Origin: an uncultured Pelagibacteraceae bacterium
GTDB taxonomy: Bacteria > Pseudomonadota > Alphaproteobacteria > Pelagibacterales > Pelagibacteraceae
NCBI GenBank assembly: GCA_902523895.1
Contig: CABZAZ010000004.1
Span: 32,491 to 96,490 of the forward strand
Length of the DNA stretch: 64,000 nt
Direction of reading: 5' to 3'
Each line of letters begins with the position of its first letter. Within the stretch, counting starts at the first letter, position 1. The position numbers and the translations under genes were made by a program. Shown in pieces: positions 39,830-46,960 of the stretch. Below the pieces are notes generated by a model. That model was not told where the DNA came from and did no database searches. It worked only from the letters and a program-made list of their open reading frames with translations.

Positions 39830-40654
39830 ATGCCAAAGGAAAAACCAGAATTAAGTGACGCAATGAGAGCTAAAATGAGTAGAAAATTGCCTGTGAAAAA
39901 TCCAATTAAAGGCACAAAATTTACAATTGCGATTTCAAGTGCAAAAGGAGGTGTTGGAAAATCCACCTTTGCAACAAACTTGGCCTTGGCTTTGAAAAAG
40001 GTTGGATGTAAGGTTGGTTTATTAGATGCGGATATTTACGGTCCCTCTATCCCAAAAATGTTGGGGATTGACGAGAAACCAAAAAGTGATGGAGAAAAAT
40101 TAGAACCTATAAATAAGTACGATATTCAGTGTATGTCTATTGGTTTCTTAGCTGATCAACAAACACCTATGATTTGGCGAGGACCAATGGTGACTAGCGC
40201 TATTAGAACTTTTACACAAAAAGTTAATTGGAGAGACTTAGATTTTATAATTATTGATATGCCTCCAGGAACTGGAGACACTCAGCTTACTTTTTCCCAA
40301 GAGATTAAGATGGATGGTGCGATTATAGTTTCTACACGACAGGAAGTTGCTTTATTGGACGTGAAAAGAGGAATAAAAATGTTTGATAAACTAGGAGTTA
40401 AAATTTTAGGCTTGGTAGATAATATGAGTTACTTTGTTGGAGATGATAATAAAAAATATAATATCTTTGGAGAAGGTGGAGTTAAAAATACTGCTGAAGA
40501 GTTTAATAAAGAATTTTTGGGAGAAATTCCAATTAATCCAAAAGTTGGTACATCAGCTGATAAAGGTAAACCGATTGTTGAAGAAGATCCGAATAACCAA
40601 ATATCAAAAATTTATTTAGATTTTGCCAATAAGATTAAATCAACTTATCTTTAA
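39830..40654 (+). CDS. Mrp/ApbC family Fe-S cluster carrier ATPase
   Basis: [21 protein letters not shown]...[16 protein letters not shown]. Confidence 0.92.
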
Positions 40655-41582
40655 GATCAAAAGCTTCCATTAATTCATTCCATTCTCGCTTAGATAAACC
40701 AGAGTCCTCCATAGAAATATTTTCACCTTTGATAAGTTTTTGAATAATAATTTTTCCTTTTGCTGAAACTTCAGTTCCTCCAACTCTATAATCTATAAAA
40801 GCATCATAGGTTATTGGAACCCATTTTTTTAATGTATCAAGCATTATATCTGCATAAACTCTAATTTCATATTGTGCATGATGGTCTGCTCTCAGTCTTA
40901 AAAAGTTCATTAGGTTTAATAAATCTGTTTTCCAATACCATTGAGTGTAAGTGTTTAATGTTAAGTTCATTCTTGCAAGCTCTCTTGCCAAACCTTTTTT
41001 ATCTTCATCAATTTTAGAACCATCGTATCTTTCATTGAGCATTGTTTCATAATTTGCATATGTTCTTTCAGCATCATTTTTTAGAAGTTCTAAAACTTCT
41101 TTAGCTTGCTCACCCTCTAAAATATCTCCCCTACCTTGTCTATTAGATGTTGATTGAGCTGCAAGATTTTCTTGAGTTGGCAAATAAAATTCTTTATCTA
41201 AAATTGAGTATCTTGCAGAATACTCATTCACATTTGCAGTTCTATGTCTTATCCATTGGCGAGCAATAAATATTGGTAGTTTGATATGATATTTAATTTC
41301 ACACATTTCAAAGGGTGTGCTATGCCAATGACGCATTAAATATTTAATTAACCCAGAGTCAGTTGAAACTTGTTTTGTTCCTTTGCCATAAGAAACTCTA
41401 GCTGATTGCACTATTGATGTATCATCTCCCATGTAATCAACAACTCGAACAAATCCGTGGTCTAGCGCTGGTAATGCTTCATAGAGAATTTTTTCTAATT
41501 CTGGAGATGTTACTCTTTTTGTTGAATTATTTTGTGATTGTTGACTTTTAATTTCAGCGGTTTGCTCTTTTGTTAGTTTCAT
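40635..41582 (-). CDS. thyX: flavin-dependent thymidylate synthase (start trimmed from 41705)
   Basis: [46 protein letters not shown]-track N-terminal 41 aa lie across the tmRNA acceptor piece, so MKLTKEQ at 41582 is the likely start. Confidence 0.92.
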
Positions 41583-41624
41583 GATTGTTATTGAATCTTT
41601 AGCAATTCCTTTTATATTAATAAA

Positions 41625-41704
41625 GTTGGATTTCCAACTATGACGATAAACGAATTTCGTAATAACCATTGCGGACGTGGGGGCAGTACCCACCACCTCC
41701 ACCA
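41625..41704 (+). ncRNA. ssrA: two-piece tmRNA, acceptor piece (5' boundary approximate)
   Basis: GGACGTGGGGGCAGTACCCACCACCTCCACCA; CACCTCC pairs with GGGGGTG at 41717-41723; 12-nt intervening sequence 41705-41716. Confidence 0.88.
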
Positions 41705-41716
41705 TTTACAACTTAT

Positions 41717-41885
41717 GGGGGTGAACTAGATTCGACGGGTGACTAAAAGCTATTCTTTCGTTCGGAATTGTTCCTCCGTAACGGGCTAATTTATAATTGC
41801 TAACGAAAGTTACGCACTTGCTGCTTAATTAACTTTGTTAATTAAGTAGTCGGGGTCCGGGGCACCTGGCAACAGAACGCCCCTT
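41717..41885 (+). ncRNA. ssrA: two-piece tmRNA, coding piece (3' end approximate)
   Basis: GGGGGTGAACTAGATTCGACGGGTGAC; tag codons 41799-41828 GCT AAC GAA AGT TAC GCA CTT GCT GCT TAA (ANESYALAA); 3' pseudoknot element CCGGGGCACCTGGCAACAGAACGCCCC. Confidence 0.9.
41858..41883 (+). repeat. ssrA attachment core, copy 1 (native)
   Basis: CGGGGCACCTGGCAACAGAACGCCCC. Confidence 0.8.
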
Positions 41886-41999
41886 CTTATTTGTAAATTA
41901 GTTTGCAGAACTAACGTTATTTTAAAAATACAACCTAGTTAGACGACTACAGGACGACTAAAATATTTACAAAATAGTTTTAAATTAATAATATTTTTT

Positions 42000-42299: not shown

Positions 42300-42335
42300 A
42301 AACAAAGTTCGGGGCACCTGGCAACAGAACGCCCC
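42300..42335 (+). repeat. ssrA attachment core, copy 2
   Basis: AAACAAAGTT + CGGGGCACCTGGCAACAGAACGCCCC, core identical to copy 1. Confidence 0.9.
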
Positions 42336-42378: not shown

Positions 42379-42413
42379 TTACATTGAAGTTTGCATTGAA
42401 GTTACATTGAAGT
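42379..42413 (+). repeat. direct repeats TTRCATTGAAGT x3 (12/11-nt period)
   Basis: ttACATTGAAGT ttGCATTGAAGT tACATTGAAGT. Confidence 0.85.
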
Positions 42414-42425
42414 CAGAAAACAAAA

Positions 42426-43001
42426 TTATCTTCTCTTATATTTAAAACCTGCAACTTTCGCAGCAAGTCTGTTAATTGGGGTAGGTTTAGAATTCGTTGA
42501 TCTAAGTAATTGAAAACTACCTTTTACATTGGCAGGTTTAATTTGACTTGAGCGTCTAGTTCCTCTTGGTCTAGGTTTTTGTTTAATTTTGATTTTTTTT
42601 CTTTTAGGTTTATTTTTTGTGTATTTTTTTAACTCATTAATTATTTTTTCTCTTTCATTTTGTAATTTTGAAGTTTTTTTAAGAAATAATTGATCAATTT
42701 TTGATTTTAATGATTTTATTTTTTTATTGATTTCATCCAAGTTTTTATAAAAGGGGTCTTTTTTGTAAAGAGTTCTTAAACTGGTGGGTGATTTAGAGAT
42801 AGGGAGTTTTCGTGTTTTAATTTTATTTAAAATTAAATCCTTTTTAGTAATTAATTTCTTTCTTCTTATTTCAAATAAATCATTAAATTTTAATCTTACT
42901 TTTTTAATTTTAATATTTAATTCTGATAATTCTTTATTTAATTTAGGAATTTTTGATTTATCAATCATTAAATTAATTGCTAATTTCGATTTTAAACTCA
43001 A
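42426..43001 (-). CDS. hypothetical highly basic coiled-coil protein (module 2 cargo; real start may be 42968)
   Basis: 191-aa Lys-rich ORF; TTG start lies in repeat R1, internal ATG gives MIDKSK. Confidence 0.6.
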   Translation of the reverse strand: MSLKSKLAINLMIDKSKIPKLNKELSELNIKIKKVRLKFNDLFEIRRKKLITKKDLILNKIKTRKLPISKSPTSLRTLYKKDPFYKNLDEINKKIKSLKSKIDQLFLKKTSKLQNEREKIINELKKYTKNKPKRKKIKIKQKPRPRGTRRSSQIKPANVKGSFQLLRSTNSKPTPINRLAAKVAGFKYKRR

Positions 43002-43060
43002 TCCTTAATGAAGTCTAGAAACAAGATTAAACCGTTATACGCGCAGATACGTCTATAACA
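42997..43060 (-). repeat. 64-bp dispersed repeat R1
   Basis: 60/64 identical to R2 at 43809-43872 by eye. Confidence 0.9.
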
Positions 43061-43087
43061 TAGTTTATTATGTGATAAGAAATTAAA

Positions 43088-43792
43088 CTATTTCATTCTG
43101 TTTCTTCTCTTGATTACAAAATCTACATTATTATTAATATATTGATTATATTCTTTTAAATTTTTTGGCAGAGGTCTTTGGGGGAATTTATCATCAAAAT
43201 CAAGAAAAAATTTTATTTCTGTAAAGTTCGTATTTACTAAATCCTGAAGAAAGAAAAATTCGACATAATGACGAAAATCTTCAAATAATAAAAAAAAACT
43301 TTTATATCTTTCTAAAGTCTCTTTTAAGGGACTTTCAATATCTAAATAATATCTTCTTATACATTCAAGTGTTAAATCAAACCTATCAACAATTCTTTTA
43401 TTCCAACCCCTCTCTCCATTTATGGTTAATTTTTTCTTTCCATTTATTATTATTTTATTTGAGGGAAAGATTATAAAACCTCCTATTGAGTAAAGTATTT
43501 CTAGTATCTCCCCTTTACGTTTTTCACTTATTTGGTCAGTAATTTCTTTCATATCCTTTCTATTAATGAATGAAACTCCAATCCCATCACTAGACAACGA
43601 AAACTCCCCTAAAGATGATTTATGAAACAAATATTTGTTTGGTTCCTTATCGGATAATTCAAACTTTTGACCATTTGGTAAATCCTTTGACCATAAGTAT
43701 TTATGATAGGACAATAATTTTTTACTTTCTTTATCTGGATCTGCTTTAGGTTTTACATCCTTCCTAAAGTCAAACGTATTGTCTATTAACAT
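43088..43792 (-). CDS. DUF6994-like hypothetical protein (module 2 cargo)
   Basis: IDNTFDFRKDVKPKADPDKESKKLLSYHKYLWSKDLPNG...LTINGERGWNKRIVDRFDLTLECIRRYY. Confidence 0.65.
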   Translation of the reverse strand: MLIDNTFDFRKDVKPKADPDKESKKLLSYHKYLWSKDLPNGQKFELSDKEPNKYLFHKSSLGEFSLSSDGIGVSFINRKDMKEITDQISEKRKGEILEILYSIGGFIIFPSNKIIINGKKKLTINGERGWNKRIVDRFDLTLECIRRYYLDIESPLKETLERYKSFFLLFEDFRHYVEFFFLQDLVNTNFTEIKFFLDFDDKFPQRPLPKNLKEYNQYINNNVDFVIKRRNRMK

Positions 43793-43808
43793 AATTCAAA
43801 AACTTAAT

Positions 43809-43872
43809 CTCAATCCTCAATGAAGTCTAGAAACAAGATTAAACCGTTATACGCACAGATGCATCTATAACA
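43809..43872 (-). repeat. 64-bp dispersed repeat R2
   Basis: CTCAATCCTCAATGAAGTCTAGAAACAAGATTAAACCGTTATACGCACAGATGCATCTATAACA. Confidence 0.9.
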
Positions 43873-43873
43873 A

Positions 43874-44428
43874 TCACTGTATTCTATCTTTAATTTCAAA
43901 TTTATTAAAATAAATATATTTTAACTCTTCCCTAAAAATTTTACCTATATCAGTGAGATTTACATTAATTCTATTTCCTGGTCGTATCATCAATATGTGT
44001 GGTTGGAAATGATTAGAACCAAAAGCATTTTTCTTATCACTTGTTTTGTGCCGTCTATTCCTTAAAACACGCTCATTTTCATATTTATAAAATGATCTTC
44101 TAAGTTGAAGTAATCTCGGCATTGCAATATTTCTTCTTGTTAATCTTATTCCTACGGGACTTTTGTTAACATTTATATTTTTTCTTGGGTTCTCTCCTCC
44201 TGGTGCTAAAACCATAAACCTAGTCTCTTTTACATCCGCCTTAATGATTTCATAACTTTTACTTCGCTTGACGTCAATTAATCTCCTCCTGCTATGATAA
44301 ATTGTTAAATGCATCCTTCGTTGTATGTGTTCCTCATCTACACCACATTTATATTTTAGAACATCAGAGATTTCCTTTTCACTCTCTCTATCAATCCATA
44401 ATAATGAATATAAACTATACCTTGTCAT
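43874..44428 (-). CDS. hypothetical protein, possibly 2H-phosphoesterase-like (module 2 cargo)
   Basis: HLT motif (RRMHLTIYHSRR) plus later FQPHILMIRPG. Confidence 0.5.
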   Translation of the reverse strand: MTRYSLYSLLWIDRESEKEISDVLKYKCGVDEEHIQRRMHLTIYHSRRRLIDVKRSKSYEIIKADVKETRFMVLAPGGENPRKNINVNKSPVGIRLTRRNIAMPRLLQLRRSFYKYENERVLRNRRHKTSDKKNAFGSNHFQPHILMIRPGNRINVNLTDIGKIFREELKYIYFNKFEIKDRIQ

Positions 44429-44450
44429 GATGAATAAATTTAACCCTGAT

Positions 44451-44519
44451 TTACAATGAAGTCGAGAAACAAGGTTGCTGCCATAAACGCTGAACTTACA
44501 TTGAAGTTTACATTGAAGT
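44451..44519 (+). repeat. degenerate R3 plus direct repeats TTACATTGAAGT x2 (12-nt period)
   Basis: TTACAATGAAGTCGAGAAACAAGGTT (cf. R1/R2) then TTACATTGAAGT at 44496 and 44508. Confidence 0.8.
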
Positions 44520-44560: not shown

Positions 44561-44580
44561 GGGGGAAACAGAACGCCCCC
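44561..44580 (+). repeat. ssrA attachment core, degenerate copy 3
   Basis: GGGGGAAACAGAACGCCCCC; keeps AACAGAACGCCCC and a G/C stem. Confidence 0.7.
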
Positions 44581-44586
44581 TGTAAA

Positions 44587-45003
44587 TCAACATAAATCTT
44601 CTAATAAAGAATAGTCAACACTTTCTGGTACTGGATATTTCCAATTTTTATTTGCAGACTCTTGTTGATCAGAATCACCTGTTCCTTTCCTTCCAGTGTA
44701 AAACACATAGGTAAGAGTTTTAATTTTTTTTATTTTGCAATCACCTTGAATATAGACTTTTACAGAATAAAAATTGCTATCTAGTATTGGTTTTGGATAA
44801 TCATTCATCTTCCAAAAAAATATATATCCTGACTCTTTCCGGACGGTATCTGTTTCTACAAAATATTCACCATCTGTTGCATTTCCAAATTTTTTCCAGT
44901 CAGCAAAAACAGAATTACAAAAAATTAGAGCAATAGAAATAATTAAAAAAAATATTTTTTTCATAATTAATTTTACTAAATTTACAACGAAGAACCAGAG
45001 CAA
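44587..45003 (-). CDS. secreted hypothetical protein (module 3 cargo; likely start MKKIFFLIISIALIFCNSVFA, ~44964)
   Basis: Signal peptide; WKKFGNATDGEYFVETDTVRKESGYIFFWKMNDY. Confidence 0.7.
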   Translation of the reverse strand: MLWFFVVNLVKLIMKKIFFLIISIALIFCNSVFADWKKFGNATDGEYFVETDTVRKESGYIFFWKMNDYPKPILDSNFYSVKVYIQGDCKIKKIKTLTYVFYTGRKGTGDSDQQESANKNWKYPVPESVDYSLLEDLC

Positions 45004-45033
45004 AAAAACAACTGAAAAGAAAATAAGTCATTC

Positions 45034-45057
45034 TGGCAATGAAGTTTGCAATGAAGT
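45034..45057 (+). repeat. direct repeats GCAATGAAGT x2 (12-nt period)
   Basis: TGGCAATGAAGT TTGCAATGAAGT. Confidence 0.8.
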
Positions 45058-45098
45058 GTTTTGATAAAACAAACAAATATGCTATTTTCTTATCTAAT

Positions 45099-45118
45099 GC
45101 CGGGCAACAGAACGCCCC
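45099..45118 (+). repeat. ssrA attachment core, degenerate copy 4
   Basis: GCCGGGCAACAGAACGCCCC. Confidence 0.75.
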
Positions 45119-45206: not shown

Positions 45207-46823
45207 TTAATTACAAAAAATATAAAGGACTGAATTTTCTAAAATTGTGTTTAAATTTTTACCTCTATATCTTTTTGATATCTTTTGAGTATCTATTTTA
45301 TTTGCATATAAAAAATCTCTAACTTGGCTAACTTTCACTCCAAAATTTATACCCTCAGTAATTTCATTTCTCAAAATAGAAACTGCTACAGCTGCAAGTT
45401 CACCATTCTTACTATCTACAATAGGTCCACCACTATTTCCAAAATTAAGAGCAGCATCAATTTGTATTTGTGCACTATTATCCTCTAATCCCTTGAGAGA
45501 ACTAATAATTCCTGACGTAAATTTTAAGTCATCACTTAAGGCTTTACCTCCTGGGTATCCTGCAGCAATTATTGATTGAAGTTTTTTTATTGGCTTATTT
45601 GTTATTTTTATAAAATATTTATTATTTAAGTTTACTTTTAGCAAAGCGAGATCTAGCTGCTTATCTTTTGCAATTAATTTAGCTTTAATTTCCTTATTAT
45701 TATAAATAATTTTTTGCTTATTTTGGCAAGACGCAATTACATGATAATTGGTAATAATATGACCTTTATCATCAACAAAAAAACCTGTGCCAGAAGATGA
45801 AATTTTTTGCTTATTTGAAAATTGTAAATCATCTTCATCAGTAGCCTCAGGCCATAGTCTTTTCATTGTTTCTTCTGTATCTCCAAAATTTGCTCTTGTT
45901 ACTATAAGATTATTATTTTTTACAAATGCATTTTGAGTTTGTTCCTCATGGGCGAATGAATAACTCCCATCCTCTGAAGGAACTATGTAAACACCTTTGC
46001 AATTTAATTTGAATTTATTTTTAACTTTTGTTGGAATTAAAGCGCCACCCTTTGTGCCGTTACACAAATGATAATCTATATTTTGATTAGCATTTTGTTC
46101 TCCCAATAAACCATCAAAAAAAGAGTCAACTGCACCTTTTTGAATTTTCCATTGATTTTTTGCAATGACATCAATGTCGTACATTTGATAAACTGAACCC
46201 TCTTTTACGATTCCTAAAATTGACCATTGTCCCCAATGCCATATTCCCTCCAATCCTTTTGGAGATTTTTTATCAAAAAATTTATGTATAAATTCATTTC
46301 TAGATTTAGGATAAATAGGATCTGAATTCCAATATTTACCTTTATTAGTTTTTAAAATTTTAACCGGATAATTTGACATTGAACTATTTCTAATATTTTC
46401 TTTTAGGATTTTTTCTACTTCGGGGATCCAGGTATTAATGTAATATTCCTTATCATATTCAAAACCATAAACTGTAAAGGGATGTTTATACTTGGGTTTC
46501 TTTTTTTTTTTTTTAATCTTATCTATTTTACTTGTTGATTTTTTAACCTTATTAAACTTCTTCTTCTTTTTTGAGCTAGACTTTCTTTTTTTTGGTTTTA
46601 TTATTTTTTTAGAATCTTTAATTTTCTCAGAACTTCCCAAAATTAATAAATTACCATCCTCTGATCTTCTCCAATCCTTACTTTTAAAAAACTTATCAAA
46701 TGAACCGTAGCTATCTTGATCTAACCAACCTAATTCATTCCAGCGTCTACGCGCAACATCTACAGCTTTTTCTTTGACATTGAACCTTGGGTCGTTTTTC
46801 CAATCTTCACTCATATCAAACAA
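45207..46823 (-). CDS. trypsin-like serine protease without signal peptide, Lys-rich linker and uncharacterised N-terminal region (module 4 cargo)
   Basis: ITNYHVIAS (His), LDLALL (Asp), NFGNSGGPIV (Ser); K-rich segment after an ~80-aa N-terminal region. Confidence 0.8.
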   Translation of the reverse strand: MFDMSEDWKNDPRFNVKEKAVDVARRRWNELGWLDQDSYGSFDKFFKSKDWRRSEDGNLLILGSSEKIKDSKKIIKPKKRKSSSKKKKKFNKVKKSTSKIDKIKKKKKKPKYKHPFTVYGFEYDKEYYINTWIPEVEKILKENIRNSSMSNYPVKILKTNKGKYWNSDPIYPKSRNEFIHKFFDKKSPKGLEGIWHWGQWSILGIVKEGSVYQMYDIDVIAKNQWKIQKGAVDSFFDGLLGEQNANQNIDYHLCNGTKGGALIPTKVKNKFKLNCKGVYIVPSEDGSYSFAHEEQTQNAFVKNNNLIVTRANFGDTEETMKRLWPEATDEDDLQFSNKQKISSSGTGFFVDDKGHIITNYHVIASCQNKQKIIYNNKEIKAKLIAKDKQLDLALLKVNLNNKYFIKITNKPIKKLQSIIAAGYPGGKALSDDLKFTSGIISSLKGLEDNSAQIQIDAALNFGNSGGPIVDSKNGELAAVAVSILRNEITEGINFGVKVSQVRDFLYANKIDTQKISKRYRGKNLNTILENSVLYIFCN

Positions 46824-46934
46824 TTATCAAATATTATTAATTCATTCGAGTCGATTTTTATTCGGCCTTGACTCGGCTTGATAAGTAAAATTAGTGTGAT
46901 TTTGTAAAATAATTGACTATAATCAAACAAAGTT

Positions 46935-46960
46935 CGGGGCACCTGGCAACAGAACGCCCC
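46935..46960 (+). repeat. ssrA attachment core, copy 5
   Basis: CGGGGCACCTGGCAACAGAACGCCCC preceded by AAACAAAGTT as in copy 2. Confidence 0.9.

Follow-up and report, generated by a model that had tools for sequence, protein, structure and literature searches.

The two repeats, R1 and R2, that separate three genes behind ssrA in the window (the whole stretch of DNA analysed, 64,000 nucleotides from an uncultured Pelagibacteraceae bacterium) are hybrids, in which the upstream part resembles the right ends of ssrA-bounded gene cassettes and the downstream part, including a palindrome, resembles their left ends. Both are probably seams formed where tandem cassettes were joined at a common inner site, making the three genes one composite element, and the third repeat, R3, is the putative inner arm site of that element's right end.

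The hybrid character was established by comparing four internal sites (R1, R2, one in L022 from AG-390-C19 and one in L102 from AG-470-I07) with 13 left ends and with right ends. Over the 18 bp before the four sites, right-end matches numbered 14, 16, 15, and 11 and left-end matches 10, 8, 8, and 10, with a random 99th percentile of 12, so that the upstream flank of the L102 site, at 11 against a background of 12, is not discriminating. Over the 42 bp after the sites the pattern was reversed, with 33, 32, 36, and 33 left-end matches, 22, 22, 23, and 18 right-end matches, and a random 99th percentile of 24. Three of the four internal sites also have the same spacing between inner site and palindrome as left ends.

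The composite element is the first of several units stacked behind ssrA (Table 1). The 3′ end of ssrA recurs in the window at 42320, 44564, 45103, and 46945, Rfam recognises tmRNA pieces at three of the copies, and CAWTGAAGT motifs occur in pairs or triplets just inside them on the same strand; the cores at 42320 and 44564 bound the composite element. Searches of g1–g3 against defence and phage-family libraries returned nothing useful. A 356-aa ORF (40635–41705, minus strand) as listed overlaps the ssrA gene, its true start being probably an ATG near 41582.

Table 1 Features of the ssrA island, in window coordinates.
Feature	Position	Strand	Remarks
ssrA, permuted alphaproteobacterial tmRNA (integration target)	41587..41887	+	Rfam RF01849, 224 bits, E=1.2e-64; ARAGORN 41610-41919
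Left att core of composite element	42313..42335	+	Copy of ssrA 3′ end (GGGGCACCTGGCAACAGAACGCCCC)
Left-end arm repeats (putative)	42382..42413	+	Three CATTGAAGT (42382, 42394, 42405), the last being the inner site with CAGAAAACAAAATT after it
g1	42426..42968	-	Basic 180-aa protein; no Pfam family above cut-off
R1, hybrid, probable seam	42992..43060	+	Right-end-type flank and TAATGAAGTCTAGAAACAAG, then left-end-type ATTAAACCG and palindrome 43034-43059
g2	43088..43792	-	DUF6994 (PF22507, E=8.8e-82)
R2, hybrid, probable seam	43804..43872	+	93% identical to R1; palindrome 43846-43871
g3	43874..44428	-	184 aa; no family
R3, putative right-end inner arm site	44454..44476	+	CAATGAAGTCGAGAAACAAGGTT; near-identical in right ends of L022, L053, L056, L080, L102
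Right-end outer arm doublet (putative)	44499..44519	+	CATTGAAGTTTACATTGAAGT
Right att core of composite element	44564..44579	+	GGAAACAGAACGCCCC
Next cassette	44587..45118		Adhesin_E-like gene 44587-45003 (-); right arms 45037-45057; att core 45103-45118
Further cassette	45207..46960		Trypsin_2 gene 45207-46823 (-); distal att core 46945-46960

The repeat reported in an earlier note on this DNA is real: R1 and R2 are 93% identical over 69 aligned bp, with the match beginning 5 bp ahead of the 64-mer originally noted. Used as a query against its own genome, R1 matched only itself and R2 (E = 9.5e-24 for R2), and the pattern CAATGAAGTCKAGAAACAAG, allowing up to two mismatches, occurred there at three places only, R1, R2, and R3, all inside the island; the resemblance of R1 to R2 is therefore far beyond chance. 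R3 has only the first half in common with the other two, and lacks the 26-bp palindrome that forms part of their downstream half. The inverted repeat GTTATA...TATAAC, ascribed by the note to every copy, is present in R1 and R2 and absent from R3. As noted, each repeat lies upstream of a minus-strand ORF and in the same orientation, with gaps to the start codon of about 25–30 bp for g1 (ATG at 42968), 12–17 bp for g2 (43792), and 26 bp for g3 (44428). R2 ends 2 bp from the final base of the g3 ORF (43874), and R1 is located 28 bp past the g2 stop.

A search for the doublet CAWTGAAGTTTRCAWTGAAGT matched 11 of 297 family genomes, compared with 0 matches for the reversed control, and approximately 45 Pelagibacteraceae contigs were taken from GTDB genomes. 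These contigs share a single plan (ssrA 3′ end, arms, one or more genes, arms, ssrA 3′ end), which often occurs in several tandem copies. The SAR11 loci comprise 107 distinct att-bounded intervals with a median of 789 bp, and the cassettes, mostly <2.5 kb, carry 1–3 genes each and no recombinase. Left ends are ordered as core, spacer, and CATTGAAGTTTRCATTGAAGTTACAWTGAAGTC AGAAAACAA..., often followed by ACCG and the 26-bp palindrome GTTATACGCGCANATGCGTCTATAAC, while type II right ends run ...AAATTTAACCCTGATTTACAATGAAGTCGAGAAACAAGGTT, arms, spacer, and GGGGGAAACAGAACGCCCC. The first arm lies 63 bp from the core in 12 of 17 left ends (62 bp in the window) and the last arm 53–54 bp from the core in 40 of 47 right ends, and the inner sites of both ends have CAWTGAAGTC..AAACAA in common, in the same orientation. 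Given this core–arm geometry, we infer that the CAWTGAAGT-type repeats may be integrase-binding arm sites. The plan also holds for two more right-end types and for a family whose arms are CACGAAGT; this second ssrA cassette family (L106, 5900–7190, and L181, G266:C1) has AATCAAGGGACGAGAAACAGAACGCCCC as its right core, and its left end contains the same palindrome. The palindrome was also observed 3′ of genes away from arm repeats, in L053 (7214), L072 (2024), and L077 (6584).

Internal hybrids were confined to gene–gene junctions, with two in the three-gene element of the window, one in L022, and one in L102. The three seam-bearing elements come from three genomes, the genes at their junctions are unrelated, and in each the number of internal sites equals the number of genes minus one; four of seven multi-gene elements (L023, L024, L167, L181) have no internal R. 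The protein encoded by g2 is 91% identical to that of a gene in G239, a genome of another genus, where it occupies a different element with different neighbours. In G239 the corresponding DNA block, 85% identical, extends from the inner boundary of a true left end (...CAATGAAGTCAGAAAACAATTTT) into the 5′ leader of the gene, where it stops, and in the window this block sits between R1 and R2 with neighbours unlike those in G239. Likewise, G239 carries at the equivalent position a 63% homologue of the first gene next to the right end in the L022 element, so that the three composite elements hold common genes in different combinations. The earlier note had stated that its reading would fall if the repeat occurred only with this gene pair; in other SAR11 genomes we found it ahead of other cargo, between other gene pairs, and g2 with other neighbours. 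To that extent the proposal of gene-plus-repeat sub-cassettes recombining at the repeat was borne out, while R does not behave as an independent cassette site, R3 being the inner part of a right end and R1 and R2 right/left hybrids.

The seams could have arisen from tandem cassettes if recombination or slippage joined the right inner site of one cassette to the left inner site of the following one. A deletion at the inner site, which we infer to be the route to the seams, would remove the att core together with the right and left arms flanking it and leave a gene-R-gene arrangement with a hybrid R; two such joins would convert three cassettes, carrying g1, g2, and g3, into one composite with cores at 42320 and 44564. 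The unfused state is seen in L102 (AG-470-I07), in which two type II elements have one core in common and 196 bp separate the right inner from the left inner site; no pair of strains representing the states before and after fusion was found. As the ten intervals that have arms at both ends contain 19 genes, all in one direction, fusion would yield co-directional genes. The cassettes themselves may be moved by an integrase supplied in trans, perhaps from a rare element, in which case the attP junction of an excised element would join right end to left end at GGCAACAGAACGCCCC. The palindrome is missing from 7 of the 13 left ends used, and because the window's own left end and the one beside g2 in G239 are among these, no exact parent of R1 could be identified. 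R1 and R2 also resemble each other (93%) more closely than they do the L022 seam (85%), which leaves room for one seam having been copied into the other.

We also considered whether R is itself an active cassette site, at which single R-gene units enter and leave through a recombinase or by homologous recombination in the manner of integrons. This seems unlikely, although the near-identity of R1 and R2 on either side of g2 is what would be expected had an R-g2 circle entered an R site, the gene-R order recurs, and g2 is found elsewhere beside other neighbours. In G239, however, no R separates g2 from the next gene and its opposite flank is simply a left end, and no single gene bounded by R was seen outside an att-bounded element. 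Moreover, no recombinase was found in the 916 array-locus ORFs or adjoining the arrays in whole genomes, and the downstream half of R is accounted for by left ends; what probability this reading keeps, it owes chiefly to the likeness of R1 and R2. More improbable is a local duplication of a 69-bp piece with no link to mobility: the genome does hold only two full copies, but hybrid copies lie between unrelated genes in two other genomes and each half is found by itself in element ends of many genomes, a recurrence that contradicts this explanation and makes it very hard to sustain.

Another possibility, to which we assign a low probability, is that R has been kept for expression of each gene, as a shared leader or a regulatory element (a promoter, a hairpin at the ribosome site, a palindromic operator, or an intergenic terminator). 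The position of R, 12–30 bp ahead of each start, accords with such a role, as does the location of the 26-bp palindrome 3′ of the stop codon of the upstream gene, also seen after genes in L053, L072, and L077. The flank includes an AGGAT/AGGGT-type ribosome-binding region, read by eye, and since each gene probably has its ribosome-binding region there, the shared leader of the earlier note retains some plausibility. The shared promoter proposed alongside it was not supported, as no sigma-70-like site is common to R1–R3 and promoter-like sites were not in excess over shuffles (22 versus 16.7 ± 4.5). Folding on the sense strand was no better than in shuffles (z-scores −0.66 and −0.38), which leaves R as a structured RNA equally unsupported, and the conserved spacing from element end to att core would be superfluous for a leader. 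We tried the palindrome as a conserved RNA hairpin and rejected it: pairing holds in 91% of cells and the register does better than slid versions, while covariation stays within that of shuffles by most measures. A leader hairpin pairing CCUUG with the ribosome-binding site, examined by eye, was set aside as well, given that its register varies among ends and its folding is not unusual. Overall, we favour the reading of R1 and R2 as seams between cassettes.

No tyrosine recombinase was detected among 916 array ORFs, using a profile for which a control recovered 25 of 25 seeds, and serine recombinases occurred in 2 of 27 genomes, none on array contigs. Because neither type was found in the arrays, we consider mobility in trans, with a helper as mover, to be likely but unproven. 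Array genomes mostly have one Xer-like protein, in no case inside an array. In most SAR11 family genomes the only Phage_integrase-family protein is Xer-like and ~317 aa long, which may point to an Xer system with one recombinase. No ssrA-specific integrase was recognised in the 297 family genomes on inspection of the loci; the 12 additional integrase loci examined had neither these cores nor the repeat arrays, and a tRNA gene was close by in most of them.

A viral carrier was sought and rejected. The exact core occurs in 14 IMG/VR contigs, of which eight look like phage-borne tmRNA genes and the rest like chance, and viral contigs with arm-doublet or R matches lack att cores. L111 has P22-like structural genes and no integrase in the four proteins scanned, and the right end gave no meaningful match in a phage collection. 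In the eight phage-like contigs (L112–L115, L118, L119, L121, L124) the ssrA 3′ end is intact and follows a gap roughly as long as a tmRNA; based on this gap and on the phage-encoded tmRNA genes known from the literature (PMC9004378), they are likely phage-encoded tmRNA genes. Such genes are possible extra cassette targets, and no cassettes were seen at these eight.

The nearest precedent appears to be the ssrA-specific genomic islands of Dehalococcoides, which, in the portion of PMC3146451 available, are described as tandem behind ssrA, bounded by direct repeats (20 bp) of its 3′ end, and in some cases as having no integration module and being proposed cis-mobilizable. Where a module is present it contains the serine recombinases DsiA/DsiB, whereas no recombinase was found in the SAR11 arrays, and the SAR11 cassettes differ further in their median of 789 bp and their CAWTGAAGT-type direct repeats at near-fixed distances. 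That portion describes no internal hybrid seams, and sub-kilobase cassettes with end fusion look new beside these islands. CIMEs and accretion in the ICESt1 family (Pavlovic 2004, in the excerpted account of PMC3146451) similarly involve att-bounded, integrase-less, tandem stacks, and CIMEs are there presumed to descend from ICEs whose ends are related. The SAR11 elements are bounded by two ssrA 3′-end copies and lack their own recombinase, as CIMEs do, and short direct repeats (putative arm sites) flank the core at a near-fixed distance on both arms, as in the att sites of tyrosine integrases. In contrast to CIMEs, no parent ICE or integrase was seen at ssrA in the SAR11 genomes examined, and the same account contains no description of fusion through loss of att between neighbours.

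Integron cassettes resemble those of SAR11 in their small, co-directional genes, repeat-gene-repeat order, and very diverse cargo, but here no integron integrase or attC-like fold was seen, the target is ssrA, and the repeat is built of element ends. Rather than a nearby intI tyrosine integrase, there is as a rule one Xer-like protein per genome, outside the arrays, and R, with a sense-strand fold no better than shuffles, has only the 26-bp palindrome to set beside an attC hairpin. SAR11 hypervariable regions were searched earlier for attC sites and none were found (PMC2217521). Additive flexible genomic islands also stack cargo behind a tRNA gene, with 3′-end repeats, in streamlined aquatic bacteria (PMC10872708). 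That paper describes tycheposons as stacking cargo behind a tRNA gene in such bacteria too, and as encoding a tyrosine recombinase and spanning 4–200 kb, whereas the SAR11 cassettes are mostly <2.5 kb, lack a recombinase, and target ssrA, and we do not class them as tycheposons. No paper describing ssrA cassette arrays in SAR11 was found in the literature searched; coverage was incomplete, which makes it uncertain whether the arrays as such are new.

One broader interpretation, which we put forward tentatively and with some doubt, is that SAR11 possesses a helper-dependent ssrA cassette system that parallels integrons, with arm-site ends and inner-site fusion into co-directional multi-gene units, i.e., an operon-building route. 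If true, this would provide a route to operons in streamlined genomes, and it bears on how SAR11, the most abundant ocean bacteria, vary gene content with little spare DNA. The ssrA arrays offer a defined alternative to attC, with one site, precise ends, and very diverse cargo, and the probable seams provide a testable record of single-gene cassettes becoming multi-gene units.

The arrays carry 136 cargo ORFs, and for 87 of these the other arrays hold no relative. A 110-aa gene is 91–98% identical in six genomes (L044, L055, L083, L094, L098, L107), always behind the ssrA core, and starts exactly 91 bp into the interval in five of the six. The left-end genes of L080, L102, and L106, three elements with two end types, are related to each other (33–46% identical), and two of the three match the polysaccharide lyase family PF14099.
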